NCBI GenBank assembly: GCA_019233755.1
Contig: JAFAMD010000055.1
Coordinates: 62,001-126,000 of the forward strand
Reading direction: 5' to 3'
From: Acidobacteriaceae bacterium
Lineage (GTDB): Bacteria > Acidobacteriota > Terriglobia > Bryobacterales > Bryobacteraceae
DNA length: 64,000 bases
Shown here: positions 12,114 to 32,487 of the stretch, one piece after another
Layout of the letters: each line of letters begins with the position of its first letter
Numbering within the stretch: position 1 is the first letter of the stretch
The notes under the pieces: generated by a model
Told to the model about the DNA's origin: nothing
The model's database searches: none
Seen by the model: only the letters and a program-made list of their open reading frames with translations
Translations under genes and position numbers: made by a program

Positions 12114-15100
12114 ATGAGCCTGAACCCGGAAGCCCAGCCCTTCTCGGTGGTTGTCCAGGCCGAACTCGATGATATTAGTCGCCGACGCGCGACGCGGGGT
12201 GAGCCCGAAATTGCTGCGGAAGCAGATTGGACGGCGCGCGCCGATAGAGCGCGTCTGTTCGGAATCTCCGCCTCCGGTGGCGGAATTCGCAGCGCTACCT
12301 TCTCGCTTGGGGTGCTGCAGGGTCTCGTCGAAAAAGGGCTGCTGCCCCGGGCTGACTATCTTTCCACGGTCTCCGGAGGCGGCTACATCGGCTCCTGGCT
12401 GCAAGGCGTGCTTGCCCGCGCCGGCCAAGGCCATGACGCATTCGCCGCGGTTGCGCCGTCGGCTCCCGAATCAGGCGTCATTCAGTTTCTGCGTAAATAC
12501 AGCAACTATCTCGCAGCGCGGCCCGGCTTATCGCTGGATAGCGCGGTAATCGCCATCATCTGGCTCCGCAACACCGTACTAAATCAGGCCATCATCATGG
12601 CTGCAGCATTCGCGGCTATGCTGGCCTGTCTTGCGCCGGGACGCTGGCTGCTGATGGCACGCGACACCGGCGTCGCGGGCTCTCTGATCATCCTGGCTCT
12701 TGGCGTCGTCGCCGGGACCATCGCTGTGATCACCATCGTCCGGAATCTGTATCCGGCCACAAAACGTGAGTCTGATCCGAACGTCGATGACCGCGGCTCC
12801 AACCCGCCGCTGGTCGGCATGCTGGTCATCTTGCCGGTAGTCCTCTCTGCTGCCCTTCTCGTTTTCGGCCTCGTGCACGTCTCGCATTTCCCTCTCACAA
12901 CCCGTTTCTGGCAGGTCGTCGGCGCCTTCGTGCTTTTCGCCCTCCACATGCTGCTGCAGCAGGCCGGCGGATTTCCGAGATGTTATCGCAAAACTCACTG
13001 CGGCCCCGCGCTTGTATGGCGTAGTTCGGGCCATGTGCTTTGGATGTCGGCATTAAGCGCGAGCCTTACCTTCGGCCTTTTGTGGGCGGTTACCCTCCTC
13101 CTCAAGTGGCTCAATCCCGGAACCATTTACGGCAGCTACGCTGCCATCGCCTGGGTTCCACCTTTGCTTCTGGCCTCCTTTATTTGCGGTGTCTCCCTGC
13201 ACATCGGACTCATGGGCAAAGATTTCCCCGACTCCGGCCGGGAGTGGTTCGCACGCTCCGGAGCATGGGTCGCAGCATGTGCCGTCGGGTGGGCTGCCCT
13301 CTTCACCATCGGCATTTTTGCGCCTCTCTGGGTAGCGAAGCTGTGGGTCTCCCCGCCCGTTGTGATTACTGCAGTCGTCTCCTGGATCGGCAGCACCATA
13401 GCGGGTGTTCTCGCAGGCAAGAGTGCCAAAACCGGCGGCAACGGGGTATCCCGGAGCCGCGTCATCGACTTCATCGCTCGCTATGCCCCGCTGCTGGCGA
13501 TTCCGGGGTTCTCCATCGCCATCGCCTTCGCGGTCCATGCAGCCTTGCATGTACTCTACCCGCAGCCGTTTCCACCGTCGCTCCAGCATGCCGGCCTTCC
13601 CGCTGTGTTCGTGGGCGAATACTGGGACAAACTCATGTTCCCCAAACCGCTGTATGCCTGGACACTCGAAGCCACGGCCATCGCGGTGTTTCTTCTCCTC
13701 TCGGTGCGGGTGAACATCAACGAATTCTCGATGCATCACTTCTACAAGAACCGCTTGGTTCGCTGTTATCTTGGCGCGAGTGCCGCCGGCTGGCGTAACG
13801 CGAACCGGTTCACCGGATTTGATCCTCAGGATGACACTTCACTCTGGTCGCTGAGGTGCGAACGGGACCAGCCGAAACCCGGTCCGTATCCGATCGTGAA
13901 TGCGACTCTCACCGTGACGCAGGGCACGGAGCTCGCAACCCAGGAGCGAAAAGCGAAACCCTGGATCTTCACACCTCGGTATTCGGGTTTCGAGCCATCG
14001 CATGCCGAGGAGCATGCCGATACCCCTGCCAACCTTTCAGCGGATGGATACGTCCCGACAAACGAGATCTTGGGCGGCAATCTGCGTCTCGGCACCGCGA
14101 TGGCGATCTCCGGCGCTGCCCTGAATCCCAATCAGGGATTTCATACCGCCACGCAGGTGGCCTTTCTGATGACGCTTTTTAATGTGCGTCTCGGATGGTG
14201 GACCGGCAATCCTCGCGACGGTGCAAAATACGGCAGGCCGGGTCCCCGCGTCGCGCTGTGGCCGCTGATCCGCGAGCTGTTCGGCTGGACCAATGAGCGG
14301 GCTCCTTATCTGAACCTTTCCGACGGAGGCAATTTTGAGAATCTTGGCTTATATGAGCTTGTCCGGCGCCGTTGCCGCTTCATCATTGCCATAGATGCGG
14401 AACAGGATCAGAACTTCGTGTTCGAAGGTTTGGGCGGCGCTGTCCGCAAGTGCCGCGCCGACTTCGGCGTTCAAATCGATATCAACCCTCGCCCCATCCA
14501 GCCGGTGAACGGTTTTAGCGGCGCACATTGTGCCGTGGGCCGCATCTGGTATCCCAATCCCGCGCAGAACGGCTGGCTGTTCTATCTGAAAGCGAGCATT
14601 ACCGGAGATGAGGCTGCCGACGTGGAAGAATACCGGCGCGAACATCCGGAATTCCCGCAGCAATCGACCGCCAATCAGTTCTTCTCGGAATCACAATTTG
14701 AAAGCTATCGCCGCCTCGGTTTGCATGTAGTCCGTTCCGGCATCGATTTCATGCCTGGCCCTGATCTGGACGCGGTCTTCAGTCGTCTTGCTGACCATTG
14801 GGAGACGCCTCCCACCGCGCCCGTCGGCACTTCCCGGCACGCCGAAGCGTATACAAACTTGCTCCATACGTGGAAGGCCGCGGTCCCGTCGCTTGAATCG
14901 TTCGACCCCGACATCGTGGCAGACAAGCCCGAGGCCTTCGCCAGCGGGGCCGGGCGCATCCGATATTTCCTGCTGCTTCAGATGATCCAGCTCATGCAGG
15001 ATGTCTTTGTCGCATACGACTTCGGACAAAGCCAGACTCGCGAGCACCCTTCGAACAGCGGGTGGATGAATGTTTTTCGTTATTGGACATCGCGCCCCGA

Positions 15101-15209
15101 GCTGCGCGAAGTGTGGCTAACGCAGCGTATGAACTTCGGATCTTCCTTCCGTCACTTCGTGGATGACCTGATTGAGAACGCGCAGATCCCGGATTCGCAG
15201 CGAACCTGA
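12114..15209 (+). CDS. Patatin-like phospholipase with large multi-pass membrane insertion
   Basis: The product is 1031 residues from the ATG at 12114, which has a G-rich Shine-Dalgarno-like stretch (12098-12103) about ten bases upstream; a TTG six codons earlier is less likely. The patatin signature is split. The oxyanion loop SGGGIRSATFSLGVLQGL is near residues 54-71 and the nucleophile elbow is STVSGGGYIGS with S87. The second half of the Ser-Asp dyad is at about D737 in NLSDGGNFENLG. Between them, residues about 155-560 contain roughly ten hydrophobic segments. The C-terminal 250 residues are soluble. The predicted activity is acyl-ester hydrolysis of membrane lipids at the cytoplasmic face. 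The family usually has under 500 residues, so the membrane block is a major insertion. Confidence 0.85.
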   Translation: MSLNPEAQPFSVVVQAELDDISRRRATRGEPEIAAEADWTARADRARLFGISASGGGIRSATFSLGVLQGLVEKGLLPRADYLSTVSGGGYIGSWLQGVLARAGQGHDAFAAVAPSAPESGVIQFLRKYSNYLAARPGLSLDSAVIAIIWLRNTVLNQAIIMAAAFAAMLACLAPGRWLLMARDTGVAGSLIILALGVVAGTIAVITIVRNLYPATKRESDPNVDDRGSNPPLVGMLVILPVVLSAALLVFGLVHVSHFPLTTRFWQVVGAFVLFALHMLLQQAGGFPRCYRKTHCGPALVWRSSGHVLWMSALSASLTFGLLWAVTLLLKWLNPGTIYGSYAAIAWVPPLLLASFICGVSLHIGLMGKDFPDSGREWFARSGAWVAACAVGWAALFTIGIFAPLWVAKLWVSPPVVITAVVSWIGSTIAGVLAGKSAKTGGNGVSRSRVIDFIARYAPLLAIPGFSIAIAFAVHAALHVLYPQPFPPSLQHAGLPAVFVGEYWDKLMFPKPLYAWTLEATAIAVFLLLSVRVNINEFSMHHFYKNRLVRCYLGASAAGWRNANRFTGFDPQDDTSLWSLRCERDQPKPGPYPIVNATLTVTQGTELATQERKAKPWIFTPRYSGFEPSHAEEHADTPANLSADGYVPTNEILGGNLRLGTAMAISGAALNPNQGFHTATQVAFLMTLFNVRLGWWTGNPRDGAKYGRPGPRVALWPLIRELFGWTNERAPYLNLSDGGNFENLGLYELVRRRCRFIIAIDAEQDQNFVFEGLGGAVRKCRADFGVQIDINPRPIQPVNGFSGAHCAVGRIWYPNPAQNGWLFYLKASITGDEAADVEEYRREHPEFPQQSTANQFFSESQFESYRRLGLHVVRSGIDFMPGPDLDAVFSRLADHWETPPTAPVGTSRHAEAYTNLLHTWKAAVPSLESFDPDIVADKPEAFASGAGRIRYFLLLQMIQLMQDVFVAYDFGQSQTREHPSNSGWMNVFRYWTSRPELREVWLTQRMNFGSSFRHFVDDLIENAQIPDSQRT

Positions 15210-20085: not shown

Positions 20086-20544
20086 TTGAGCAAATCGAAT
20101 CGAAGAGGTTTTCTTGGGAAAGGCGCAGCCGTGGCCGTCGCCGCTGGTATAGCAACCGCTCCTGCGGAAGCGCAGGCGACAGCGACGAAAAAGGTTCTCT
20201 GGCCCGACGGCAAGAAGCCTGAGAAGACGCCTTTATTCAGCCCCGCGGTGACTTATGGCAATTTGTTGTTCCTGTCCGGCATCGGTGCCCACTTCCAGGG
20301 AGACATCAAGTCTCACACCCAGCATGTCCTCGACGAGATCCAGAAGCATCTCGAAGCAGCCGGCTCTTCCATGGACAAAGTTCTAAAATGCCAGGTCTAC
20401 TTGGCCGACCTGAAAGACTATCAGGGCATGAATGAGGTGTTCCAGGGCCGCTTCGGCTCCGAACCGCCTGTCAGAACAACCATTGCGGCCGCAGGAGTTC
20501 CCGGCAACTCGCTCGTCGAGATTGATGTGATCGCCTACATCTGA
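20086..20544 (+). CDS. Tat-exported RidA-family enamine/imine deaminase
   Basis: The 152-residue protein starts at a TTG preceded by AAGGAGG about nine bases upstream. The N-terminus carries a twin-arginine signal (NRRGFLGKGAAVAVAAGIA, cleaved near AEA). The rest is a complete RidA/YjgF domain. Residue R in PPVRTTIAAAGVP corresponds to the carboxylate-binding arginine of active RidA enzymes, and VEIDVIAYI matches the C-terminal strand with its conserved Glu. RidA hydrolyses 2-aminoacrylate-type enamines released by PLP enzymes, normally in the cytoplasm. Export is unusual and coincides with two Tat-exported PLP enzymes 5 kb downstream. The gene stands alone and ends at a hairpin. Confidence 0.88.
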   Translation: MSKSNRRGFLGKGAAVAVAAGIATAPAEAQATATKKVLWPDGKKPEKTPLFSPAVTYGNLLFLSGIGAHFQGDIKSHTQHVLDEIQKHLEAAGSSMDKVLKCQVYLADLKDYQGMNEVFQGRFGSEPPVRTTIAAAGVPGNSLVEIDVIAYI

Positions 20545-20558
20545 AGTCGGGCACGCAG

Positions 20559-20584
20559 TTAGCCGGACCACGCGGTCCGGCTAA
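20559..20584. terminator. Hairpin between convergent genes
   Basis: The arms ttagccggacc (20559-20569) and ggtccggctaa (20574-20584) are perfectly complementary with a four-base loop. The hairpin lies 14 bases past the RidA stop and covers the stop codon of the convergent RraA gene. There is no strong T-tract on either strand, so it may be a weak or bidirectional terminator, or an mRNA-stabilising structure. Confidence 0.55.
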
Positions 20585-21315
20585 AGCCGTCCAAATTGAG
20601 CCACCGCTTCTCGAATGGACTTATATTTTTCGATGAACGGATACATGCTGTGCTCGCTCTGGTCTAACTGCTGGGCTTTTTTCAGAACTTCTGCAGCATG
20701 CTCTCTAGGCACCACCGCTACGCCGTCCCCATCGGCTACAACTATGTCCGCTGCTTTCACCTGCACGCCGGCACAGTTCACCGGAATATCCTTGCCCGCG
20801 AATCGGTAGTGGTTCACCGTCGTGGAGGGAACCACCCCGCGGCTGAAGACCGGAAATTGTAGCCTGGCGATCTGGGGCGTGTCCCTGACACCTCCGTCGA
20901 CAACCGCGCCCGCGAATCCGCGGTACTTCATTGCCGTGCTCATCAGGCCGCCGATACCCGCGTAATCCAGTCCGTCTTCGAGTACCATGACGTAAACCGA
21001 ACCCGGCGCACTCTCGTCAATGGTGTCCAGCATTCCCTGCAGCGCTTTCGCGCCTTCGTTGTTTTCTTCCTTTTTCAGCAGCACGGTTACTGCCGGACCC
21101 GCGAATTTGGTCGGGCTCAGCGGCCGCATGCTGTGTGACATGTAGGCCCTCTTTCCATAAAGCTGCTCCATTGCGTCGGCGACAGAGGCAACTTCCACCA
21201 GGCGGAAGCCTTCTATTAAGCTGTCTTGTGTGCCCTCCGTGTCTGGCCTTCTGAACGACAGCACAACAAACAGGGCGGCTATACCCAACAGAACCGTAAT
21301 CGCTTTTTTTCTCAT
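20581..21315 (-). CDS. RraA/HMG-aldolase-like protein with N-terminal membrane anchor or signal
   Basis: The 244-residue protein opens with MRKKAITVLLGIAALFVVLS, a signal peptide or anchor, unlike ordinary cytoplasmic RraA proteins. The RraA core spans about residues 35-225. It includes the GGVRDTP segment whose Arg-Asp pair binds substrate and metal in class II pyruvate aldolases of this family, and DIVVADGDGVAVVP, the most typical motif. Related enzymes cleave 4-hydroxy-2-oxo acids to pyruvate or decarboxylate oxaloacetate. The metal-binding residues are at least partly conserved, favouring an enzyme over an RNase E inhibitor. It lies seven bases before the DUF362 gene's stop on the same strand, so the two probably share a transcript. 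Confidence 0.82.
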   Translation of the reverse strand: MRKKAITVLLGIAALFVVLSFRRPDTEGTQDSLIEGFRLVEVASVADAMEQLYGKRAYMSHSMRPLSPTKFAGPAVTVLLKKEENNEGAKALQGMLDTIDESAPGSVYVMVLEDGLDYAGIGGLMSTAMKYRGFAGAVVDGGVRDTPQIARLQFPVFSRGVVPSTTVNHYRFAGKDIPVNCAGVQVKAADIVVADGDGVAVVPREHAAEVLKKAQQLDQSEHSMYPFIEKYKSIREAVAQFGRL

Positions 21316-21321
21316 AGTTAG

Positions 21322-22425
21322 TCACGAAAGGCGAACTCGACGCACCTCGATCTTGTCGTCGCTAAATTCACCAAGTCCCAGCATTCCGGCGATTTCAATA
21401 TGTTCCACCTGGCAGTTCAGAAAATGGCTCGCCTGGTCGGGTTTTGAGAGCGCAATCGGCGCCATTCCCACCTCTTGCCGTTTTGCGTCGATGAGTTTCC
21501 AGCCTGTCTTATCCAGCGCAACCGGATCCGTTCCGAAATAAAGCGTCTTAGGCTCCCAAATGAACTGCGGCTTTCCCGTCGGACCGCCGTGATACGACGC
21601 CTTCACCGCATCTACTACATGCAGGACCACCTTCTGACGGATGACCGGCAAGCTCACGACGGAGGGGATAAACACCCCGCAAGCGTTCGCGGTTGGAGTG
21701 ATATGGCTGCGGTTCACGTTATTTACGAAGCCATGGGACATGTTTTTCAGAGTGATGGTGACGCCGGCGGACTGGTGGTGCTTTAGAACCGGTACATTAA
21801 TGATCTTGTTCACCTCGGTCGTAACAACCTTGGCTACGTAAGAACGCCGTGAGTGCGGATCGTTCGGATTGTCGCCCGGTTTGACAATCGCCATCTCCAT
21901 GAAATGGTTCTCATCATAGCCATCCATGTCAAGCTGTACATTGTCATATCTCGGTGACGCAGCTTCAAAGCGAATTCCTGGCCGCAGCCACTTGTCGATG
22001 CCGGCAGCGAGCGCTTCCTCCCGATACCTGTTAAAGACAACGATGCGATCGTCGGAAACGCCGGCCTGGTTGAGTCCATCGAAAATCGCGTGCAGAACAG
22101 AGGCATCGGAGCAGAGGCCGGGACCGCCAACCGGACTCACTTTGATACCCACTACGTCGCCTTTTTCAAACAGGGATGGCCAGGCATCCTGCCATGTAGG
22201 AGCTCCTGTGAGATCCGTCATGCCTCGTTCCACCATCTGCCGGACCACCAGCGGCTCATAGGTCCCCGATACAATGCACCCCGGGTGCTCGATCGCGACG
22301 ACGCGCCCCGGGTAAGGACCGGGAATGCCAAGGGGGCGTGTCTCTGCATTGCTTGTTGAGCGGCTCAGCGCCGCTGCCGCACCCAGGAACGCAGTCTCAA
22401 GGAAGTGTCTTCGATCAATGCGCAT
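21322..22425 (-). CDS. Tat-exported DUF362 domain protein
   Basis: The 367-residue protein has a twin-arginine signal (DRRHFLETAFLGAAAALS). The mature protein corresponds to DUF362: KGDVVGIKVSPVGGPG near residue 110, NVPVLKHHQSAGVTITLKNMSHG near residues 215-238, and DPVALDKTGWKLI near 315. DUF362 proteins are often found beside iron-sulfur or redox enzymes, but this one has no cysteine cluster and its activity is unknown. It is the first gene of a pair with the RraA-like gene and is separated by 79 bases from the SMP-30 gene, which is on the same strand upstream. Confidence 0.82.
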   Translation of the reverse strand: MRIDRRHFLETAFLGAAAALSRSTSNAETRPLGIPGPYPGRVVAIEHPGCIVSGTYEPLVVRQMVERGMTDLTGAPTWQDAWPSLFEKGDVVGIKVSPVGGPGLCSDASVLHAIFDGLNQAGVSDDRIVVFNRYREEALAAGIDKWLRPGIRFEAASPRYDNVQLDMDGYDENHFMEMAIVKPGDNPNDPHSRRSYVAKVVTTEVNKIINVPVLKHHQSAGVTITLKNMSHGFVNNVNRSHITPTANACGVFIPSVVSLPVIRQKVVLHVVDAVKASYHGGPTGKPQFIWEPKTLYFGTDPVALDKTGWKLIDAKRQEVGMAPIALSKPDQASHFLNCQVEHIEIAGMLGLGEFSDDKIEVRRVRLS

Positions 22426-22504
22426 AGGCCGAGAACTGCAAACAGTTTATCGCTGAGCTGTGTGGCGCAGGCGCCTTCGCCGGCGTGTCTCGGCCGGGAC
22501 GGCG

Positions 22505-23515
22505 TCAGTTGTGAACCGCGGAATTCTGCAGATTCGGCATGAACCCGCGAGCCCTTGTTCGAATGCGATACACGGACTTGGTCGCCGTGATGTACAGCGT
22601 CCTATAATCCTTATCGCCCCAGGCAAGATTGGCAGGTTGCTCCGGCATGATGATGGTTCCGAGGTGATTCCCTTGCGGATCCCACACCCAGATGCCCCTG
22701 GGCCCGACAACATAAAGGTTTCCGGACTGATCCACTCTCATCCCGTCCGGCACCCCGCCGGCTTCATTCTCATCGCCGAAGAGCTTTTCGTTGCTCACGT
22801 TCCCATCGGGTGAGAAGTTGAAAACCCGTATGTTCTTCTGGTCGCTGTCGTCCACGTAAAGATGCTTTCCATCCGGCGAGAATGCGAGCCCGTTCGGTTG
22901 CGACATGTCCTTCACCAGCAGCCGCACGTCTCCCTTCTCATCGAGCCGGTACACGCCCTGGAATGGAATTTCCTGTTTCTCGCCCTTGACTAAATCAAGT
23001 GTCGGATCGGTGAAGTAGAGCGCGCCATCGGGTCCGGCCACTACATCGTTTGGACTATTGAACCGGTGTCCTTCGAAGCGGTCTGCCAGCGTCGTGTATT
23101 GGCCGTCGGGGCTCACTCGAATAATGGCGCGCAAGACGCTCGCGCAGTCGATCAAACGCTGCTGCCGGTCGAATGTATTGCCATCCGGGTCTCCGAGTGC
23201 GATCAGTGTTTGCTTCCGTCCATCCAGGTAAACGCGGTAGATCTTGTTCTGCTCCTCGTCGCTGACATAGAGAAAGCCGGCTGGATCCCAGACCGGACCC
23301 TCCGTGAAGCCAAATCCGGTGGCAATCGATGCAGCCGTCGCATTGCGGTCGAAAAGGCTCCAAAACTTGGGCGATAGCGCTACGAGTTCAAATTTCCGCG
23401 GTGTCTTATTCGCTTCCTGGAAACCCACCAGCAGCGCCAGCAGAGGCAGCGTGGCCAGCCATGTTGTGCGCCTCCGAAGCAGCAGTTTCAATCCTGTCGC
23501 CCCGGCTCTACTCAT
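22505..23515 (-). CDS. SMP-30/gluconolactonase-family six-bladed propeller, exported
   Basis: The 336-residue product has a basic N-terminus with a hydrophobic stretch (TTWLATLPLLALLVGF), a signal peptide or anchor. The propeller shows the metal ligands of the family: Glu in GFTEGPVWDP, Asn in RFNSPNDVVAGPDG, and Asp in GVPDGMRVDQSG. NGLAFSPDGKHLYVDDS is the usual blade repeat. Members hydrolyse aldonolactones such as gluconolactone. The start overlaps the stop of the upstream cytochrome gene by eight bases, so the two are translationally linked. That pairing fits an oxidise-then-hydrolyse route outside the cytoplasm. Confidence 0.88.
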   Translation of the reverse strand: MSRAGATGLKLLLRRRTTWLATLPLLALLVGFQEANKTPRKFELVALSPKFWSLFDRNATAASIATGFGFTEGPVWDPAGFLYVSDEEQNKIYRVYLDGRKQTLIALGDPDGNTFDRQQRLIDCASVLRAIIRVSPDGQYTTLADRFEGHRFNSPNDVVAGPDGALYFTDPTLDLVKGEKQEIPFQGVYRLDEKGDVRLLVKDMSQPNGLAFSPDGKHLYVDDSDQKNIRVFNFSPDGNVSNEKLFGDENEAGGVPDGMRVDQSGNLYVVGPRGIWVWDPQGNHLGTIIMPEQPANLAWGDKDYRTLYITATKSVYRIRTRARGFMPNLQNSAVHN

Positions 23516-24317
23516 CGTCGTTTTTCTCGGCCGGCGCCGGCGGCGTTCCGGGAGTCTTCACCAGGTAACAGACCAGATCGTCCAGATTCGCACTTGTCAG
23601 TTCCGTTCCGTATGTCGATGGCATGCTCGACTGTTTCTGATAGTCAATCCTGACTAATTCTGATTTATCGAAAAAGTGGAAATTCCCGTCGGCGGTCTGC
23701 ATCTGCAGCGAGAAGTTGTCTTCATTGCGAACCACTCCGGTGTACTTCTTCCCCGACAGGGTGACCACTATCACCGTTCCGTGGCGCGGATCCAAATTCT
23801 TATTCGGGTCGACAATGGACTCGCGAATCGCTGCCGGAGAATGTGTTTTTCCGTACCCGGAGAGGTCAGCCGCGAGGAATCCGCCCTCGCCGCGTATCAT
23901 GTGGCACTGTGAGCAGCGGGCCTTGCCAAAGAACAATACTCGTCCGCGATCGGGATCGCCGGGGACCGAAACGGCTCCGTCTTGTCCTTGCAGCGAGCGG
24001 ACGTACTTTATCACTGCATCGATTTGAGTTTTGTTTAGAGAAGAACGAAATCCTGGCATACCCGCCGCCGGAATGCCGTTGCTTACAATCCGCGTCAAGT
24101 CCTGGTCGGAAAGTTGCTGCACATTGGCGCTCGTCGCGATATTCGGGGCGTGTTCGCCGCCGCGTCCATCCAGCCCGTGACATGCCGCACAGGTCGAACT
24201 GAACAACTGCTGCCCAACCTCAGACTGCCCTTGTCCTCGCGCGCTCAGGTGCAAGAACGAAACGACGCACAACAAACCCGCCGTTACGAACCCGGTCCTG
24301 GGTATAGGCCGATCCAT
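23508..24317 (-). CDS. Di-haem c-type cytochrome (cytochrome c plus TIGR02603-like domain)
   Basis: I start the protein at the ATG at 24317 (MDRPIPRTGFVTAGLLCVVS), which yields 269 residues with a signal peptide. An upstream start at 24401 would add 28 residues of unlikely sequence. The first haem site is C43-A-A-C46-H47 in a small cytochrome c domain (about 32-112) with GMPGF as the likely axial methionine. The second site is C135-S-Q-C138-H139 at the start of the putative haem-binding domain common in planctomycete and acidobacterial membrane dehydrogenases (GRVLFFGKARCSQCHMIRG). It likely takes electrons from a periplasmic dehydrogenase. It overlaps the lactonase gene by eight bases. Confidence 0.88.
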   Translation of the reverse strand: MDRPIPRTGFVTAGLLCVVSFLHLSARGQGQSEVGQQLFSSTCAACHGLDGRGGEHAPNIATSANVQQLSDQDLTRIVSNGIPAAGMPGFRSSLNKTQIDAVIKYVRSLQGQDGAVSVPGDPDRGRVLFFGKARCSQCHMIRGEGGFLAADLSGYGKTHSPAAIRESIVDPNKNLDPRHGTVIVVTLSGKKYTGVVRNEDNFSLQMQTADGNFHFFDKSELVRIDYQKQSSMPSTYGTELTSANLDDLVCYLVKTPGTPPAPAEKNDDE

Positions 24318-24389
24318 CGGGTAAATGAAATTACTATACCTGAAGCGCGGAGTCTCCTGACACATACAATCCGAAATTGGACTCAATAC

Positions 24390-25118
24390 ATGACCAAACA
24401 CTGCATTTCAGCAGCCCTCTTATTAGCGTTCTCGCTGCAAGCGCAGCCGCCCTGCGTTTTCACGCAGCCTCCGGCAAGCTTTTCGATCCGGCATGTGGAC
24501 GGGCATCCTGACCTCAGCCTGGCCCCGAATGCCGCCATCTGGCAGAATGCCGCGGCGCAATCCATGTGGAAAGACTGCGAACGCCAGATTGACTACCCGG
24601 AGCTGAAGACGGAAATACGCGCCTTCTGGACCGATACCGATCTTTATCTCCTGTTTCGCTGCCCGTATACCGTCCTGAATGTCTTCCTTCCGCCGAACAA
24701 CAGCGCAGAACGTGTCGGCTTATGGGACCGTGACGTGGTCGAGATGTTCATCGGAGACGATTGGTCCAACATCCGGCACTATCGCGAGTTTGAAATCGCG
24801 CCGACCGGTGATTGGGTCGATTTGGCCATCGATCTGGATCGCAAAAGCTACGATCATACCTGGCAGTCCGGCTTTCAAACCATGGCGCGCATCGATGAGA
24901 AGCAGAAGATCTGGTACGCGGCTGCCCGCATCCCGCTTTCCGCCGTAAGCAGCAAGCCGGTTGAAGATGGCACAAAGTGGCGTTTGAATCTCTATCGCAT
25001 CGACGGTGCGGGCGCCGACCCGCAACGCCATTTCTTGTGTTGGCAGCCCATCTGCGATCCGAAGCGAAACTCCAACCATGTACCCGAACATTTCGGCACC
25101 CTGATCTTCACCAAGTAA
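24390..25118 (+). CDS. Exported carbohydrate-binding family 9-like protein
   Basis: The ATG at 24390 gives 242 residues starting with a signal peptide (MTKHCISAALLLAFSLQAQPP); the same frame is open further upstream but that part overlaps the divergent cytochrome gene. The body is a single CBM9-like domain: AFWTDTDLYLLFRC near residue 75, WDRDVVEMFIGDD near 112, YREFEIAPTGDWVDL near 130, and RLNLYRIDG near 210. The asymmetric Trp and acidic residues of this fold bind sugar ends or act in xylan and cellulose binding. No catalytic domain is fused. It is divergent from the cytochrome gene with 72 bases between starts. Confidence 0.85.
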   Translation: MTKHCISAALLLAFSLQAQPPCVFTQPPASFSIRHVDGHPDLSLAPNAAIWQNAAAQSMWKDCERQIDYPELKTEIRAFWTDTDLYLLFRCPYTVLNVFLPPNNSAERVGLWDRDVVEMFIGDDWSNIRHYREFEIAPTGDWVDLAIDLDRKSYDHTWQSGFQTMARIDEKQKIWYAAARIPLSAVSSKPVEDGTKWRLNLYRIDGAGADPQRHFLCWQPICDPKRNSNHVPEHFGTLIFTK

Positions 25119-25148
25119 GCGAATTTGAAAAAACGAAGCCAATTTGGG

Positions 25149-25219
25149 AGTTCGTTTGGTAAGATCGCCGTATCTTGTTGCAAAATAACGTAGCTGGCTG
25201 AGGTAAGTTCGTTTGGTAA
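25149..25219 (+). repeat. Pair of 14-base direct repeats upstream of the first PLP-enzyme gene
   Basis: The sequence agttcgtttggtaa occurs at 25149-25162 and again at 25206-25219, 57 bases apart. An aaacgaa just before the first copy is complementary to ttcgttt within it. The copies lie 50-120 bases before the start at 25270 and could be binding sites for a regulator. No clear -10/-35 pair was identified. Confidence 0.35.
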
Positions 25220-25269
25220 TTTCAACTCGTGCCTCGATATCTCGCTTTGCTTGAGCGATCATTGAAGTC

Positions 25270-26904
25270 ATGCCGGATTCGTTTATAAGCACCCTGGGTC
25301 GTTATCTGGATCGTGTCAGTCGTCGGGATCTGTTGCGTGGGAGCACCCTGCTTGGGTTAGTGCCGGTGTCCCGGACGCCTGCGCTCGCCAAGGGCACCCA
25401 AACCCCTCCGAATATCTACGAATCAATCGGTGTCCGTCCCGTGATCAACTGCCGCGGCACGTACACCGTCATTGGCGGTTCGCTGGAACTGCCGGAGGTG
25501 ACGGCTGCGCAGCAGGCCGCCGCACAGCACTATGTACAGCTCGATGAACTCGCCGATGGCGTCGGGCAGCGTCTCGCGGAGTTGACGGGCGCCGAGTGGG
25601 GAATGGTGTCGTCAGGCTGCGCCGCCGGGCTGGCGCACGCGACGGCAGCCTGCGTTGCCGGCGGGAATCCCGACCTGCACGTCAGGATCCCCAACCTGAG
25701 CGGTTTCGCCAAGGACGAGGTCGTTATCCCCGTCCACTCGCGCAACGAGTACGATGCCGCCGTTCGATCCATCGGTGTCCGGATCGTTGAGGTCGCGAAT
25801 GAGCAGGAGTTCCAGGCGGCTCTGGGTCCGCGTGTCGCCATGATTTATGTGCTGGCCGGGCCTAACGCCGAATCCGGCCCACTGACCTATGACATGATCT
25901 ACCCGCGCGCCCGGGAGCGGAACATACCAGTCCTGGTTGACGCGGCTGCCGAAGTGTTGACCATTCCCAACGTGCATCTACGTCGCGGTGCCACGCTGGT
26001 TGGATACAGCGGCGGAAAGTGCATCCGCGGTCCGCAATCGGCCGGACTCCTTCTCGGCCGTAAGGATCTCGTGAAAGCAGCCTGGGTCCACAGCGCGCCT
26101 CATCACGGCTACGGCCGCACCATGAAGGTCGGCAAGGAGGAGGCCATGGGAATGCTTGCCGCCGTTCAAATGTGGACCAAGCGCGATCATCAGGGCGAGT
26201 GGAATACCTGGATGTCGTGGATGAATCACATCGCGAAAGAGGTCGGGTCGATTGACGGCGTCACAACGTCGATCAGCCAGACGGAAGAGCTGTCGAACCA
26301 CAGCCCGGTTCTCACCATTCGCTGGGATACGGACAAAGTCGGAATCAGCGGTGCGGATGTGGAGCACACGCTATTCACAACGGAGCCTCGGATTACCCTC
26401 TCCGGCTTTGGTGGCAGGCGATCAAGCCATACGGCGGCAAGTAACGAAACAGGCGTATCAATTACCGCCTACATGATGTGTCCCGGTGATGAAACTGTAG
26501 CGGCCGGAAGGCTCCGGGAGATCCTCTCGAAGGCTGCTGGTGTCAAGCTTGCGCGTGATACCGCGCCTCCTGCCACTGATATCAACGGCGAATGGGACGT
26601 TCAGATCCAGTTTGCCGCCAGTCGGTCCACACACGTCCTGTACTTGCGGCAGAACGGTTCCGACATCACAGGAACTCATCAGGGCGACTTTCTGGCCAGG
26701 GATCTCATGGGCTCAATGCATGGCAACGCCGTCAAACTGACGAGCAGCATCGGAGAGCAACATGGCGCGGCGCTGACCTATACGTTCACCGGAACTGTGG
26801 ATGGTGAAACGATCGCAGGCGAACTCAGCCTGGGCGAATACCGGTCAGCGACCTGGACCGCTGCCCGACATAAGTACGACTTCGGCGGGCCCGGCAGGTC
26901 ATAG
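25270..26904 (+). CDS. Tat-exported SelA/DgaE-like PLP enzyme with C-terminal beta domain
   Basis: The 544-residue product has an N-terminal Tat-type signal (SRRDLLRGSTLLGLVPVS). Residues about 48-430 are a fold-type I PLP enzyme of the SelA/D-glucosaminate-6-phosphate ammonia-lyase kind. The Schiff-base lysine is K250 in YSGGKCIRGPQSAG and the pyridine-binding aspartate is D223 or nearby in VDAAAEV. Residues about 437-536 (DINGEWDVQIQF onward) form an extra beta-rich domain with lipocalin-like strand spacing not found in the paralogue. The reaction is probably elimination of ammonia from an amino or hydroxy acid, but the substrate is unknown. The next gene, 28 bases downstream, is a paralogue, so they likely form an operon. 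Confidence 0.85.
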   Translation: MPDSFISTLGRYLDRVSRRDLLRGSTLLGLVPVSRTPALAKGTQTPPNIYESIGVRPVINCRGTYTVIGGSLELPEVTAAQQAAAQHYVQLDELADGVGQRLAELTGAEWGMVSSGCAAGLAHATAACVAGGNPDLHVRIPNLSGFAKDEVVIPVHSRNEYDAAVRSIGVRIVEVANEQEFQAALGPRVAMIYVLAGPNAESGPLTYDMIYPRARERNIPVLVDAAAEVLTIPNVHLRRGATLVGYSGGKCIRGPQSAGLLLGRKDLVKAAWVHSAPHHGYGRTMKVGKEEAMGMLAAVQMWTKRDHQGEWNTWMSWMNHIAKEVGSIDGVTTSISQTEELSNHSPVLTIRWDTDKVGISGADVEHTLFTTEPRITLSGFGGRRSSHTAASNETGVSITAYMMCPGDETVAAGRLREILSKAAGVKLARDTAPPATDINGEWDVQIQFAASRSTHVLYLRQNGSDITGTHQGDFLARDLMGSMHGNAVKLTSSIGEQHGAALTYTFTGTVDGETIAGELSLGEYRSATWTAARHKYDFGGPGRS

Positions 26905-26932
26905 CAGGATTCGGCGGGAAAGGAGCCATTAC

Positions 26933-28174
26933 ATGAGCGGTTCGACAACACGCCGGGAGCTTTTAGGTCGTGCCGGAACTCTGGTTGGAGCTGTCAGCCT
27001 CTCGAGTCCGGCGCAAGCGGCGAGCGCAGAGGCCGAGGATTACTACGACAAACTGGGCGTCACCAAGATCATTAATGCTGCCGGAACGTATACGATTCTC
27101 ACGGCATCCCTGATGCCTCCGCAGGTGCAGGCGGCAGTTGCACAAGCGGCGAAGCATCCGGTTCGTTTGCTTGAGTTGCAGAAGAAGTCCGGGGAGTATC
27201 TGTCGCAGCGCCTACGATGCGAAGCGGCCATGGTGACAGCAGGAGCTTCGTCGGCGCTGACGCTCGGCACGGCGGCCTGCATCGACGTGATGAACCAAAG
27301 TCCCATCCAATCGGTACCCGCTAAAGTCGGCGAGTTGCGCAAGAACGAAGTGATCCTCCAGAAAGCACATCGCTATTCCTACGATCATGCACTTGAGAAC
27401 TGCGGGGCGAGGTTCGTCGAGGTCGAGTCGCTCGATGATTACCAGAAGGCGTTCACAGAGCGGACGGTAATGGCCCACTTCTTCAATGCCGCGGAAGGCG
27501 GCCAGATCGGGCGCGAAGATTGGGTGCGGGTCGCACACCTACACGGTGTTCCATGCTTCAACGACGCCGCCGCAGATGTTCCGCCGATTTCGAATCTCTG
27601 GAACTATACGCAAATGGGTTTCGATCTGGTTACCTTCTCGGGAGGGAAGGGAATTCGCGGTCCGCAAAACGCCGGTTTGCTTTTGGGGAGGAAAGATCTC
27701 ATTGCGGCAGCCGCCGCGACCAATAATCCGTTCGATGAAGGAGTAGGCCGCGGCATGAAGGTCGCAAAGGAGCAAATCGTCGGAATGATCGCGGCCGTGG
27801 ATTGGTTTCTCAGCCAGTCGGATGAAAAAATGGAAGCCGAGTTCCGCGCCCGGGCCGATCGAATCTGCGCCGAGCTGAAAGGTATCCCGACTCTGCAATC
27901 GAAAATCGTGATCCCTCCCGTCGCGAACCACGTGCCGCATCTGCTGCTGCAGTATGACCAGCAGCGTGTCAAGATCGCACCGCTCGAAGTGGCCAAGCAA
28001 CTCCGTCACGGAAATCCGAGCATCGAACTTAATCCTTCTACTGGACGGAGGGAGGGCTCTGCGGGGTTGCCTTCCGATGAGAACACCATTGTGGTTGGCG
28101 TCTGGATGCTCGAACCGGGCGAAGATGTAATCGTCGGCCAGCGGCTTCACGAGGTTTTGTCCGCAGCGGTTTAG
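26933..28174 (+). CDS. Tat-exported SelA/DgaE-like PLP enzyme, second copy
   Basis: The ATG at 26933 lies seven bases after AAAGGAG and gives 413 residues. The Tat signal is TTRRELLGRAGTLVGAVS with cleavage near AQAA. The PLP lysine is K239 in FSGGKGIRGPQNAG and the ring-nitrogen aspartate is D211 in NDAAADV. TKIINAAGTYT and LGRKDL are shared with the upstream paralogue. It lacks the C-terminal beta domain of that copy. The pair may form heteromers or handle two substrates. Tat export fits a cofactor-containing enzyme that folds before transport. The convergent PQQ-dehydrogenase gene ends 12 bases after its stop. Confidence 0.87.
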   Translation: MSGSTTRRELLGRAGTLVGAVSLSSPAQAASAEAEDYYDKLGVTKIINAAGTYTILTASLMPPQVQAAVAQAAKHPVRLLELQKKSGEYLSQRLRCEAAMVTAGASSALTLGTAACIDVMNQSPIQSVPAKVGELRKNEVILQKAHRYSYDHALENCGARFVEVESLDDYQKAFTERTVMAHFFNAAEGGQIGREDWVRVAHLHGVPCFNDAAADVPPISNLWNYTQMGFDLVTFSGGKGIRGPQNAGLLLGRKDLIAAAAATNNPFDEGVGRGMKVAKEQIVGMIAAVDWFLSQSDEKMEAEFRARADRICAELKGIPTLQSKIVIPPVANHVPHLLLQYDQQRVKIAPLEVAKQLRHGNPSIELNPSTGRREGSAGLPSDENTIVVGVWMLEPGEDVIVGQRLHEVLSAAV

Positions 28175-28185
28175 GCGCTGCAGCG

Positions 28186-30321
28186 TTATTGCGGCAGGGC
28201 AAACGCAACATAGGAACCGTGTATTTTGCCTTTGGATGCCGGGTTGATTTCGGCTTGCCCGGCCGCGCACACGACGAGATATTCCCGCCCGCCTACCTCA
28301 TAAACCGCCGGCATTCCCTGGAGCCCCGCTTGCAGCTCGGTTTCCCAAAGCACCTTCCCGGTGTCCTCGTCGAGTGCTCGCACTTTGCGATCTCTGGTTG
28401 CGGTGAAGATTAACCCGCCGGCCGTCACGACAGGACCCACTTTCGGGAAAACGGAACCGGTATCTTTGAAGCCTTTTGCCGCCAGTTCGGGTACTTCGCC
28501 GAGCGGGATTTTCCACTTAATCGTTCCTTTGTTGAGATCGTAGGCTGTAAGCGAGGACCAGGGCGGACCGATTGCGGGAAGTCCGTTGCTGGCAAACATA
28601 AAGCCAAAGCCGCTGACATAGTGAGTCGTTTTCGAATTTGCGGCAGAACTCTCGACTGACGCTGCACCCGCATGGGCCGGGTTGCGCAGGTAGGCGACCA
28701 GTGCATCCAAGTCCGCCTGCGTGAGCTTGGGGAACGCCGGCATGGAATCCTGGCCCTGTTTCACGATGCTCTTGATCTGTTCCTGATCGAGCCTTTCCCC
28801 GACGTCAACAAGTGACGGGACTGCTGGCGGCTCACCTTTTCTATTCGCGAGGTGGCACCACCGGCAATTCGCCTCATAGATCACTGCGCCTCGTTGTTCG
28901 GGAGAATCTGTCGGTGATGCCTTTAACGAGCGTTCCGGCTCCAGCTTGAGAATGCATGGAAGATCCTTCGAAACGACGAACAACGTTCCGTTTTGAGGAT
29001 CGACGGCGGCGCCGGCCCAGTTCGCTCCGCCGTTGTTTCCGGGCATTTCAATTGTGTCTTCCAGCCCCGGGGGTGTGAAAAGACCCTCGTTGCGAGCCCC
29101 CTGAATCTCGTGCAGCAGACGAGCGCGCTCTTGTGGGTCTTCAACGAACGGATCCAGATCTTTCGCGGTAAAACTCTGCCGGGCGAAAGGCGGAGGTTTG
29201 ACTGGGAAGGGCTGTGTGGGCCATGTCTCTTCTTCCGGAACACTGGAACGCGGCACCGGGCGTTCTTCGATCGGCCATAACGGCTCCCCGGTTACCCGAT
29301 TGAACACCCACACGAAACCTTCCTTGCCCGCCTCCGCCACGGCGTCAACCATCTGGCCGTTGTGGCGGACCGTGAGAAGCTTCGGTGCGTTGGCATTATC
29401 GTAATCCCAGATATCATGATGAACCATTTGGAAATGCCACAGGCGCTTGCCGGTGCGAGCGTCAAGGGCGAGAAGGCAGTCGCCGAACAGGTCGGCTCCT
29501 TTGCGGTCTGCACCGTAAAAGTTGTACTTAGGACTGGCGGTCGGCACGTAGACGATGCCGCGCTGTTCGTCGAGCGACAGTTCGCTCCAGGCATTCGCTC
29601 CGCCCACCGTTTTCCACGCATCCTTCGGCCATGTTTCGTACCCGAACTCACCCGGATGAGGTACGGTGTGGAACGTCCAGACCAGCTTGCCCGTTCGGAC
29701 ATCGTAAGCACGCACATCGCCGGGAGCCGATCCGTACCCTTCGTTTGTTGCTGAGCCGAGAATGAGCAGGTCTTCGAAGACTCGCCCGGGTGTTGTCGAT
29801 TGGACGAGAGAGAGCGTGGTGGGATCTCTGCCCAGGCCTTCTCTCAGATCGACGCGGCCGTTGTCGCCAAAAGACGAGATGGAGCTGCCGGTGCGGGCAT
29901 CGATCGCCTCCAGGAAGTTATTGCGGGCGAACATGAGCCGCCGGTCCGACCGGTCGCGGCTCTCCCAATAATTGATCCCGCGGTTTGTGATGAGCTTGGT
30001 CCTGGGACCGGTCTCGTGAATCCAAACTTCCTTTCCGCTGGACGCATCGAGAGCAACGATCGAATTGTTCTTCGCAAGAACATACATGAGACCATCGACT
30101 ACGATCGGGTTGAATGAATATTGGTTATCATCGCCGGTTGGGTAGATCCACGCGATCTCCAGCTTCTTCACATTGGAGCGGTTGATTTGTTTGAGCGCCG
30201 AATATTGCGCCGAGTCGGCGGCGCCGCCGTAGTCGCGCCAGCCCAAATGAGTTTCCCCTGTGGTGGGGGATTTGGCGACCGCGATAAAGCAGAGGCTCAG
30301 TAGGACTCTATGAAAGCGCAT
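28186..30321 (-). CDS. PQQ-dependent dehydrogenase with an inserted cytochrome c domain
   Basis: The 711-residue product has a signal peptide (MRFHRVLLSLCFIAVAKS) and then a quinoprotein propeller beginning WRDYGGAADSAQYS. Blade repeats such as IVALDASSGKEVW and LLALDARTGKRLWHFQ are clear. The propeller is interrupted at about residues 476-550 by a cytochrome c domain with C486-R-W-C489-H490 and axial M527 (DSMPAF). The last blades follow (SSLTAYDLNKGTIKW, RALDEDTGKVLWETE). Enzymes of this type oxidise sugars or alcohols in the periplasm and pass electrons through the built-in haem. Its ATG overlaps the start of the opposite-strand gene by 12 bases. Confidence 0.92.
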   Translation of the reverse strand: MRFHRVLLSLCFIAVAKSPTTGETHLGWRDYGGAADSAQYSALKQINRSNVKKLEIAWIYPTGDDNQYSFNPIVVDGLMYVLAKNNSIVALDASSGKEVWIHETGPRTKLITNRGINYWESRDRSDRRLMFARNNFLEAIDARTGSSISSFGDNGRVDLREGLGRDPTTLSLVQSTTPGRVFEDLLILGSATNEGYGSAPGDVRAYDVRTGKLVWTFHTVPHPGEFGYETWPKDAWKTVGGANAWSELSLDEQRGIVYVPTASPKYNFYGADRKGADLFGDCLLALDARTGKRLWHFQMVHHDIWDYDNANAPKLLTVRHNGQMVDAVAEAGKEGFVWVFNRVTGEPLWPIEERPVPRSSVPEEETWPTQPFPVKPPPFARQSFTAKDLDPFVEDPQERARLLHEIQGARNEGLFTPPGLEDTIEMPGNNGGANWAGAAVDPQNGTLFVVSKDLPCILKLEPERSLKASPTDSPEQRGAVIYEANCRWCHLANRKGEPPAVPSLVDVGERLDQEQIKSIVKQGQDSMPAFPKLTQADLDALVAYLRNPAHAGAASVESSAANSKTTHYVSGFGFMFASNGLPAIGPPWSSLTAYDLNKGTIKWKIPLGEVPELAAKGFKDTGSVFPKVGPVVTAGGLIFTATRDRKVRALDEDTGKVLWETELQAGLQGMPAVYEVGGREYLVVCAAGQAEINPASKGKIHGSYVAFALPQ

Positions 30322-32487
30322 CGCTCAATTGGACCTAAATATAGCGCTCTCCATTTTGTGGCGATCTTCTTGATACTCGCCTTCGGCCTTTCCGGCCAGT
30401 CTGGAAAAGAGGCGGCCCTCGTCCGGGTTGACACAACTCCGGGACACGAGCTGAATTCGTTCGATCCTGACGAAGCGCTGGGAAGCTCGATCGACGTGCT
30501 TTCCCATAAGGACATCGACGAGGTATACACGCCACACATCATTCAAGAATCGCTTTCGGCAGGGTGGGGACCCATCACCTATCGCAACAACTCGGAACTG
30601 CGCATGGCCGCGTGGCACTGGAACGAGAACGGCAGTTGGAGCGATCAAGAGCATAAGAGCGGCTATTTCACCGGCAGCTCTGAACTGGGCGAACCCATCC
30701 GCTATATCCTGGAGTACGCGCTTCCCCATCGAGGATTCTCCACCAGCGGCGATGCGCCTGTTCAAGGTCCCAACCTCATTTACTGGAAGAGCAATCCGTA
30801 TCTGACCAGCAGATTCACTGGAGAGAGCGACTCCCTTCATCCGCAATGGGTCGTAATGGATTTAAAGACAGAGAGGCCGGTAAATGCAGTCAGGATCGGC
30901 TGGGCTGAACCTTACGCCAGAGCTTACCAGGTGCAGTATTGGATAGGAAAAAACGCGCTCGACTTCGATGCAGGGCCGCAGGGCGAGTGGAAGACTTTTC
31001 AGGCGGGCGAAGTGAGCCGTGGATCAGGCGGCGCCGTAACGCTCAAACTTGCCGCGGAGCCTGTCTCGGCGCGTTTTCTTCGAGTCTGGATGACCGAATC
31101 ATCGAATACTTGCGACCTGCATGCATCGGGTGATATTCGGAACTGCGTCGGATACGCCATCGAGAGCATCCACGCCGGGACCGTCGACGATAACGGTGGC
31201 TTCGTGGATGCGGCCAAAAATGCGTCCGGCAAGGACCAGCCAACGTACTGCTCGTCTTCCATTGATCCTTGGCACTCGGCCGCGGATGTAAATGCCGGCG
31301 GCCGCGGCCAGCATACGGGATTTGACCTCTTCTTCACTAGTGGTCTAACGAACAACCTTCCGGCGCTGATTCCGGTCACCCTGCTGTATGGCACACCGGA
31401 CGATGCAGCGGCACAGGTTGCCTACCTCGAGAAGCGCGGGTACCCGATCCGCGGGATTGAAATGGGAGAGGAGCCGGACGGGAAACATGCGCTGCCGGAG
31501 GATTACGGCGCATTGTACATGCAATGGGCGGCGGCCATTCATAAGGTAGACCCAACGCTCAAACTGGGCGGGCCGATTTTCGAAGGCGTAAACGAAGATA
31601 TCCGGGTATGGCCTGACGCCCAGGGCCGAACATCATGGATGGGCCGTTTCGTTGCCTATCTGAAAGCGCACGGCCGTCTCGGTGACCTCGCGTTCGTGTC
31701 CTTTGAACATTATCCGTTCGAGCCATGCGACATCACCTGGAAGACGCTATACACGGAGCCGCATTTAATGAAGCACATTCTCGAGGTCTGGCGAGCCGAC
31801 GGCGTGCCGAAAGAGGTTCCGCTCATGGTGACGGAGAATCACCTCGCTGCCGCTCTCACCGGTCCCATGAGCACGATTTTCGCGGCGTTATGGCTCGCCG
31901 ACAATATCGGCTCCTTTTTCGAAGGCGGAGGCGCGGCGTTCTATCATTCACCCATCCAACCGCAGCCGGTCGAAAATAGTTGTCTCGGGTGGGCTACGTG
32001 GTCGAATTTCGTGTCTGATCGCGACTACAACATCTCCGGCTACACGTCGCTCTATTTTGCCGCTCACCTGATCAACCTGGAGTGGGTGCAGCACCGGTCC
32101 GGTGTGCATCATATGTTCCCATCGGCCATAGGGATCAAGGACAGCGAGGGCAATGAGCTTGTCACGTCGTATGCAGTACTCCGGCCAGACGGAAACTGGT
32201 CCCTGATGCTGGTGAATCGGGATGAGACGAGCCCGCACCTTGTGCGTGTCGCGTTTCAGGACTCGAAGAGCAAGCGGAATGCGTACTTCTCTGCTCCAGT
32301 CACACTCGTGACGTTCGGCAGTGAGCAGTACGTCTGGCATAACGACGGTAGTAACAGCCACGCCGACCCGGACGGCCCGCCGATCGGCGGCACCCGGCCG
32401 GGAGGTTCAGAAGCAACTTACACCCTGCCCAAAGCGTCTGTCACAGTGCTTCGGGGCAGGGTAAAGGCCGTCGAGCCGCCCGCTTAA
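30310..32487 (+). CDS. Exported glycoside-hydrolase-like protein with discoidin-like domain
   Basis: The 725-residue product starts MKAHRSIGPKYSALHFVAIF, a signal peptide. Residues about 150-270 resemble a discoidin/F5-F8-type beta-sandwich (WVVMDLKTERPVNAVRIGWAE, RFLRVWMTES). Residues about 325-620 look like a TIM barrel of clan GH-A. Candidate catalytic residues are E388 in EMGEEPDG, at the strand-4 acid/base position, and E509 in MVTENHL at the strand-7 nucleophile position. The C-terminal 110 residues are beta-rich, as in accessory domains of arabinofuranosidase-like enzymes. I cannot assign a GH family. The gene for a TMTC-like protein starts eight bases after its stop. Confidence 0.7.
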   Translation: MKAHRSIGPKYSALHFVAIFLILAFGLSGQSGKEAALVRVDTTPGHELNSFDPDEALGSSIDVLSHKDIDEVYTPHIIQESLSAGWGPITYRNNSELRMAAWHWNENGSWSDQEHKSGYFTGSSELGEPIRYILEYALPHRGFSTSGDAPVQGPNLIYWKSNPYLTSRFTGESDSLHPQWVVMDLKTERPVNAVRIGWAEPYARAYQVQYWIGKNALDFDAGPQGEWKTFQAGEVSRGSGGAVTLKLAAEPVSARFLRVWMTESSNTCDLHASGDIRNCVGYAIESIHAGTVDDNGGFVDAAKNASGKDQPTYCSSSIDPWHSAADVNAGGRGQHTGFDLFFTSGLTNNLPALIPVTLLYGTPDDAAAQVAYLEKRGYPIRGIEMGEEPDGKHALPEDYGALYMQWAAAIHKVDPTLKLGGPIFEGVNEDIRVWPDAQGRTSWMGRFVAYLKAHGRLGDLAFVSFEHYPFEPCDITWKTLYTEPHLMKHILEVWRADGVPKEVPLMVTENHLAAALTGPMSTIFAALWLADNIGSFFEGGGAAFYHSPIQPQPVENSCLGWATWSNFVSDRDYNISGYTSLYFAAHLINLEWVQHRSGVHHMFPSAIGIKDSEGNELVTSYAVLRPDGNWSLMLVNRDETSPHLVRVAFQDSKSKRNAYFSAPVTLVTFGSEQYVWHNDGSNSHADPDGPPIGGTRPGGSEATYTLPKASVTVLRGRVKAVEPPA

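Follow-up and report, generated by a model that had tools for sequence, protein, structure and literature searches.

Deamination of amino acids and amino-sugar acids by pyridoxal phosphate (PLP)-dependent lyases, and control of enamines by RidA, are to our knowledge normally described inside cells. In enterococci, EF_0837, EF_0838 and EF_0839 form a gene set that we take to encode a deacetylase, a SelA-related protein and an aldolase. The ong pathway of Pseudoalteromonas prydzensis, as described in PMC9537276, converts N-acetylglucosaminate to 2-keto-3-deoxygluconate (KDG), acetate and ammonia; OngB is the deacetylase, OngC the PLP-dependent deaminase, and OngD a RidA protein that is essential in vivo and whose role is given as unknown. 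In DgaE, according to PMC9529869, the strictly conserved His-163 donates a proton to the enamine, which therefore leaves as the imine; the H163A mutant is fully active yet releases enamine, and Arg-301 is part of the phosphate cluster in a docked model. For haloarchaea, PMC12343721 describes a proposed chitin route that uses a glucose dehydrogenase and a homologue of DgaE; the clusters concerned also hold a RutC-family protein, which is interpreted there as a repressor. By analogy with the ong and haloarchaeal routes, oxidation followed by deamination seems plausible as chemistry. Two other PLP enzymes are relevant: Cap15, an amino-acid monooxygenase-decarboxylase, and PvdN, an oxygenating enzyme that is periplasmic according to titles cited in the same review (PMC7497351). 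Here we analyse a 64,000-nucleotide stretch of DNA from an Acidobacteriaceae bacterium (the window; C63:62001-126000 of genome G000, an assembly of 4.95 Mb in 71 contigs), which carries a RidA protein and two DgaE-like PLP enzymes, SelA1 and SelA2, all with export-type N-termini. Whether these genes form part of a conserved extracytoplasmic module that would deacylate and deaminate N-acyl beta-hydroxy-amino (sugar) acids, followed by import, is in our judgement evenly balanced.

The gene most tightly partnered with that of the PLP enzyme encodes an apparently exported EF_0837-type deacetylase, which was not visible to the preliminary description of this DNA. In a set of 150 family genomes, homologues of SelA1 were found in 118, a close RidA (E ~1e-46 or better) in 105 and an EF_0837-type deacetylase in 119. 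SelA and the deacetylase occurred together in 114 genomes and were both missing from 27 (Fisher 1e-20, shared ancestry uncorrected); G050, from the genus of the window genome, has no SelA1, no deacetylase and no close RidA. Distances were taken from the listed matches only (117 for SelA, 106 for RidA and 114 for the deacetylase), and among these SelA and RidA are neighbours in at least 15 family genomes, always on the same strand with 21-55 bp between them. The distance from SelA to the deacetylase is no more than 3 kb in at least 16 (at least 11 of them on one strand), and that from RidA to the deacetylase in at least 12. Counts in some family genomes reach at least nine SelA and at least 11 deacetylase homologues, a multiplicity that suggests expansion for different substrates.

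Linkage was counted in 92 distinct loci chosen by SelA similarity alone, 28 of them family loci taken by rank and 64 from a wider SelA1 search in which the best 80 of 477 loci were kept. Twelve of the 40 family loci had been picked for carrying RidA, which biased our earliest family counts, and were excluded; before counting, 103 of 120 loci were retained, with L100 (no SelA1) and 16 that repeat a SelA1 sequence dropped. As controls we used 60 arbitrarily placed 20-kb regions, drawn from family genomes only, with no actinomycetes or Bacteroidota among them. The deacetylase was present at 33 SelA loci, RidA at 20, and DUF362 and a 309-aa protein (c7) at nine each; since none of the four occurred in any control region, they are linked to SelA, and chance assembly is rejected for them. 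RraA (13 loci versus two controls) and SMP-30 (seven versus none) are weakly linked, with chance assembly weakly rejected. The RidA signal comes mostly from the wider search (19 of its 64 loci); among the 28 by-rank family loci, RidA was near one and the deacetylase near seven. The preliminary description had proposed that relatives be searched for co-occurrence of these genes, and the pairing of PLP enzyme and RidA clearly holds up in that search, with a weaker signal for RraA. Taken together, the pairing of an apparently exported DgaE-like PLP enzyme with an apparently exported RidA is supported as real and conserved.

The c7 protein is about 309 aa long with a signal-type N-terminus, had no Pfam match in the one member scanned, and adjoins DUF362 (L095:5613-6539, L099:6859-7785, L268:6996-7925 and L266:9114-10043); it is also found on contig C29 of the window genome.

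The wider search, limited to the same best 80 loci, brought in SelA1 relatives not only from Acidobacteriota but also from Actinomycetota (Jiangella, Spongiactinospora, Nonomuraea, Actinomadura and Streptomyces) and Bacteroidota (Dyadobacter, Chryseolinea, Limnovirga, Adhaeribacter and Daejeonella). Adjacency of SelA, RidA and the deacetylase is regular in Acidobacteriota and Actinomycetota and less so in Bacteroidota: the three genes stand in a row in eight of nine actinomycete loci, and the 15 Bacteroidota loci (L178 counted in) have the deacetylase nearby in ten cases and RidA in four. In the actinomycetes, SelA and RidA have N-termini of the RR type and the deacetylase has a hydrophobic one of signal type; export-type N-termini are seen in Bacteroidota as well. 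RraA lies near five of the nine actinomycete loci and has no signal in the four whose N-terminus is visible.

Both PLP proteins of the window are nearest to TIGR01437, the 'DgaE family', yet score far below its cut-off (164 and 168 versus 385 bits), and they likewise fall short of the DgaE model NF047797 (159 and 133 versus 600 bits). By sequence and predicted fold, the solved proteins nearest to SelA1 are DgaE (7lc0/7lce) and then Cap15 (8t7j; TM score to target 0.85, sequence 1.5e-49); the SelA1 model (pLDDT 76, compared with Foldseek) was used for fold matching only, not for active-site geometry. The PLP lysine is kept in all 111 homologues, both window proteins included. In the same alignment an equivalent of the DgaE proton donor His-163 is found in none, one of His-162 in a single homologue, and Arg-301 of the phosphate site is Arg in four and absent from the window proteins; Arg-332 and Arg-346 fall outside the aligned stretch. 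(The active lysine is residue 217 in the DgaE paper and 213 by count in the PDB stretch; the numbering of His-162/163 and Arg-226/301 agrees.) Because DgaE membership fails on both cut-off and residues, we call these proteins DgaE-like. The missing His-163 and Arg-301 would fit an unphosphorylated extracytoplasmic substrate and a benefit from RidA. Specifically, the lack of His-163 predicts that SelA enzymes behave like the published H163A mutant, in which case the released enamine would give RidA a role from which they profit. SelA1 also carries an extra C-terminal beta-rich domain (residues ~440-535, window ~26590-26880), which has no Pfam match and is covered by SelA1 matches from three phyla.

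RidA scores 82 bits with PF01042 (gathering score 27) and stays under the cut-off of the TIGR00004 subfamily (74 versus 106 bits). Its R6, R7 and R130 are invariant across an alignment of ten sequences that includes a distant paralogue (30%), and R130 is presumably the catalytic Arg-105 of the E. coli type, equated by motif. The linked deacetylase exceeds the PRK09237 cut-off (NF006689; 438 versus 371 bits) and lies under that of TIGR03583, the EF_0837 model (238 versus 432 bits). HxH, K, H, H and D, which we take to be the metal ligands of the EF_0837/PRK09237 amidohydrolase family, are kept in seven of seven aligned deacetylases from three phyla. Its nearest solved relatives are 8wzy, 2ogj, 2ics and 8je0, which bear dihydroorotase, adenine deaminase or amidase names. 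Four linked major facilitator superfamily (MFS) proteins were scanned, and all are nearest to the D-galactonate subfamily, below its cut-off.

Export was judged by a sequence rule: as a crude test for twin-arginine translocation (Tat), we asked for RR with a hydrophobic 12-mer after it. In the window RidA, DUF362, SelA1, SelA2, RraA, SGL and the over-long CBM9 open reading frame (ORF) match this rule; the cytochrome, pyrroloquinoline quinone (PQQ) and glycosidase-like proteins do not, their N-termini being plainly hydrophobic. To this extent the export-type N-termini that the preliminary description had noticed on the genes are for the most part borne out. Among homologues, 93 of 111 SelA and 25 of 28 RidA proteins match, versus 111 of 638 control ORFs, a background that makes the rule unspecific for any single protein; most of the SelA homologues listed as failing it open with RR ahead of a less strongly hydrophobic segment. 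A hydrophobic N-terminal 10-mer is found in 38 of 39 deacetylase homologues versus 252 of 638 control ORFs. With the NCBI TAT model TIGR01409, RidA was the only one of ten proteins scanned to score above the cut-off (17.8 versus 16.7 bits).

A few relatives hold much more of the window set. A contig of an Acidobacteriaceae metagenome-assembled genome (L175) packs nearly all of it into 19 kb, along with the deacetylase and an MFS transporter, with identities of 74% for CBM9, 74% for SelA2, 72% for SMP-30, 57% for the cytochrome, 76% for RraA, 80% for RidA, 77% for the deacetylase, 81% for the glycosidase-like protein and 30% for DUF362; c7 is there too, the SelA1-type protein is 50% identical, and the PQQ protein (34%) is no orthologue of the window's. 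In G085 (L269), 12 kb contain relatives of the glycosidase-like protein (49%), RraA (77%), PQQ (27%), cytochrome (30%), CBM9 (66%), SelA1 (52%), RidA (62%) and SMP-30 (62%), together with an MFS gene. The glycosidase-like protein is rare (8 of 101 family genomes), and judging from these fullest relatives, it and the CBM9-like protein are members of the set. The same-genus genome G145 keeps RidA, RraA, DUF362, SMP-30 and cytochrome in window order, with an MFS gene preceding RidA and the deacetylase separating DUF362 from SMP-30; its SelA1-SelA2 pair and another MFS gene are on a separate contig. G045 groups RidA, SelA1, SelA2, a PIG-L protein, DUF362 (34%) and the deacetylase, and the SelA1-SelA2 pair is conserved in L066/L115 and L114. 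RraA relatives with 73-86% identity occur in the G145, G101, G008, G085 and L175 loci, and PQQ relatives lie near SelA in L123 (59%) and, at full length, next to SelA1 in Adhaeribacter L182 (43%). Compared with these loci, the window appears to be a member whose deacetylase and transporter have been lost or relocated. The window genome also encodes a PqqE above cut-off and a 2-keto-3-deoxy-6-phosphogluconate (KDPG)-type aldolase.

We infer the catalytic steps, their order, the substrate and the actual location from the gene content, linkage, N-termini and conserved or missing residues observed above. As substrate we propose an N-acyl beta-hydroxy-alpha-amino acid. An N-acetyl amino-sugar acid is the most likely one, and the PQQ-dehydrogenase and SMP-30 lactonase may form it on site. 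The exported EF_0837-type amidohydrolase would de-acylate it, and the Tat-exported DgaE-like PLP enzyme would then eliminate water from the free amino acid. Because SelA lacks DgaE's proton-donor histidine, we propose that it lets the enamine or imine go, for exported RidA to hydrolyse to a 2-keto acid and ammonia. The nitrogen-free keto acid would be imported, in relatives by the galactonate-type MFS protein, and feed a cytoplasmic KDG/KDPG route. If the enzymes are exported, PLP loading, the reactive enamine and nitrogen release would all lie outside the inner membrane, which raises the question of how the PLP cofactor crosses that membrane; passage through Tat of an enzyme already folded and loaded would be consistent with this. 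Such a system would be a specific nutritional route for soil Acidobacteriota. That it is widespread, with an exported deacetylase freeing the amine, a donor-less exported PLP lyase handing its enamine to a dedicated exported RidA, and the keto acid imported, in Acidobacteriota, Bacteroidota and Actinomycetota and multiplied for different substrates, is a possibility we put forward tentatively. The possible exported aminosugar oxidation, deamination and cleavage pathway of the preliminary description is partly supported, through the pairing of PLP enzyme and RidA; cleavage by RraA is doubtful (see below), and linkage of the PQQ enzyme is in general at background.

Several observations weigh against the proposed module. 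In the PLP enzymes, Arg-226, which contacts the substrate carboxylate in DgaE, is kept in only 76 of 111 homologues, and another proton donor is possible, as other histidines (123, 236, 278, 279 and 307) are conserved in most of them. The window SelA1 falls in a clade of 11 tips in the SelA tree, only one of which (G045) has an adjacent RidA; the RidA-linked SelA1 proteins of L175 and G101 are ~50% identical and no orthologues of it. Given this tree, what ties SelA1 of the window to its RidA is their co-residence here and the case of G045, rather than a shared window operon. The deacetylase and MFS genes are absent beside the window genes. The genome's own deacetylase (84%) is on contig C37, next to an exported-looking RidA (30% to the window RidA), a TonB-type receptor and, by eye, an IclR-like regulator, and this locus holds a decayed, frame-broken SelA1 remnant, corresponding to the C-terminal domain (L109:9128-9417), between the receptor and the deacetylase-RidA pair. 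When the same genome was searched with the two MFS proteins of G145, the best matches reached 30% and 37%. In the 92 loci and 60 controls, PQQ (14 versus six), TonB-type receptors (23 versus 15), MFS (seven versus two) and the cytochrome (five control regions) are not enriched near SelA, so that chance assembly stays unrejected for these; strict PQQ relatives (at least 38% over 400 aa) number three in 103 loci and one in 60 controls. The co-occurrence that had been anticipated for the PQQ gene thus fails in general, a few close loci keeping the whole set. Finally, at 57 of the 92 SelA loci both the deacetylase and RidA are absent from the stretch read; some of these loci lie on short contigs.

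The main rival keeps the exported module and changes its substrates to N-acyl D-amino acids or peptidoglycan- or protein-derived beta-hydroxy (serine/threonine-type) amino acids, with the sugar-type neighbours unrelated. None of the nearest solved relatives of the deacetylase is named as a sugar enzyme, the core of SelA, RidA and deacetylase is kept in the nine actinomycete loci, where PQQ, SGL and DUF362 were not found, and the ong authors' own parallel is D-amino-acid degradation (PMC9537276). However, among characterised proteins the PLP enzyme is closest to a glucosaminate-6-phosphate lyase, the linked MFS proteins lean towards D-galactonate, albeit below cut-off, and the fullest loci hold SMP-30, CBM9, PQQ-dehydrogenase and glycosidase-like genes; on balance we find a non-sugar substrate somewhat unlikely. 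It is rather improbable that the PLP enzyme is instead a Cap15-like O2-dependent oxidase or monooxygenase-decarboxylase working outside the cytoplasm, with RidA removing imines or serving some other role. Cap15 is the second-best structure match to SelA1 and the review that covers it also includes the oxygenating, periplasmic PvdN (PMC7497351), but DgaE scores slightly above Cap15, and partnership with a deacetylase fits lyase pathways such as ong. Least probable of all is the absence of any pathway, with independent housekeeping or detoxification genes that have come to lie side by side and RidA shielding periplasmic PLP enzymes from stray enamines: the window genes do lie on both strands and not in one operon, and PQQ and cytochrome linkage is generally at background, but RidA and deacetylase are linked across three phyla, L175 and G085 hold large sets, and G050 lacks the core genes jointly.

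The RraA-like protein lacks the Asp of D-x20-R-D, and the window, G145 and L175 proteins read G-x20-R-D-x2-Q in alignment with 3noj, where four aligned actinomycete neighbours read G-x20-R-D-x2-E. We take G-x20-R-D-x2-E/D to be the second aldolase motif, and the window has Gln at the Glu/Asp position. Most RraA-type homologues hold one of two motifs (as stated in PMC5065237). That the RraA-like protein works as a class II pyruvate aldolase is doubtful. The PQQ-dehydrogenase is nearest to the glucose/quinate family (TIGR03074, 1e-123), under its cut-off (414 versus 833 bits). A lanthanide-dependent enzyme, read from an extra Asp in its motif, was considered and dropped because the same motif is also present in glucose dehydrogenases. 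Apparent fusions of a window-type cytochrome domain with a PQQ propeller occur in L094:11255-13531, L102:282-2630 and relatives, which hints that the window cytochrome and PQQ enzyme are redox partners. For the glycosidase-like protein, the best Foldseek matches of a weak model (pLDDT 69) are GH79, GH44 and GH51 enzymes.

All the genes that had been listed at 20086-30321 are present in the order given, each with a Pfam or NCBI profile match. The table carries two corrections from the sequence: SelA2 starts at 26933, not 26801, which leaves 28 bp between SelA1 and SelA2 on the plus strand, and the cytochrome probably starts near 24317. RraA, DUF362, SMP-30 and the di-haem cytochrome are consecutive minus-strand genes with gaps below 80 bp.

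Table. Genes of the locus, with window coordinates, strand and supporting features.
Gene product	Position	Strand	Features
RidA (Rid/YjgF)	20086..20544	+	PF01042 3e-23; twin-arginine N-terminus; catalytic-type Arg-130
RraA-like	20581..21315	-	PF03737 2e-37; N-terminal hydrophobic signal/anchor; aldolase motif incomplete (G-x20-R-D-x2-Q)
DUF362 protein	21322..22425	-	PF04015 1e-17; twin-arginine N-terminus; 6 bp from RraA
SMP-30/gluconolactonase-type beta-propeller (SGL)	22505..23515	-	PF08450 3e-52; hydrophobic N-terminus
Di-haem cytochrome c	23508..24317	-	PF00034 3e-21; TIGR02603 haem domain 4e-28; two CxxCH
CBM9-like protein	24390..25118	+	PF06452 4e-8; signal-type N-terminus
SelA1, DgaE-like PLP enzyme	25270..26904	+	TIGR01437 5e-48; Tat-type N-terminus; PLP Lys-250 in SGGKCIRGPQ
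SelA2, second DgaE-like PLP enzyme	26933..28174	+	TIGR01437 4e-49; Tat-type N-terminus; no C-terminal domain
PQQ-dependent dehydrogenase, cytochrome c domain inserted	28186..30321	-	PF01011 2e-184; cytochrome CBB3 7e-14; probably glucose/quinate family type
Clan-A-type glycosidase-like protein, F5/8C domain	30310..32487	+	PF00754 3e-8; exported-looking

Elsewhere in the window, an exopolysaccharide-type cluster lies next door at 39058-47991, with polysaccharide export, Wzz/tyrosine-kinase-like, asparagine-synthase-like and three glycosyltransferase genes, and a large protein at 12096-15209 shows, by eye, a patatin-like GGGIRS motif and hydrophobic stretches.

Open-access literature searches turned up no paper that we recognised as describing an exported set of RidA, PLP lyase and deacetylase, and each known system matches this one in part. 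Cap15 is the second-nearest relative of SelA1 in fold and sequence (8t7j), but it is an antibiotic biosynthesis enzyme, and we know of no deacetylase or RidA linked to it. The enterococcal EF_0837 set also brings together a deacetylase and a SelA-related protein, whereas here both have export-type N-termini and RidA is added. DgaE (7lc0/7lce) is the nearest solved relative of SelA in sequence and fold and shares its PLP lysine; SelA differs in its export-type N-terminus and in lacking His-163 and Arg-301, and SelA1 in its extra C-terminal domain. PvdN illustrates that a PLP enzyme can function in the periplasm (PMC7497351, from the titles it cites), although it is a fold-I enzyme with other chemistry that serves modification of the siderophore pyoverdine rather than catabolism. 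The closest parallel by role is the ong pathway, with its D-aminoacylase-type deacetylase, PLP deaminase, RidA and outer-membrane receptors (PMC9537276). As far as that report describes them, OngB and OngC are predicted to be cytoplasmic, OngB is closest to D-aminoacylase and the importer is an SSS protein, whereas here the sequence rule gives export-type N-termini (in the relatives and in the window PLP enzymes), the deacetylase is of the EF_0837/PRK09237 type, and the transporter in relatives belongs to the MFS.

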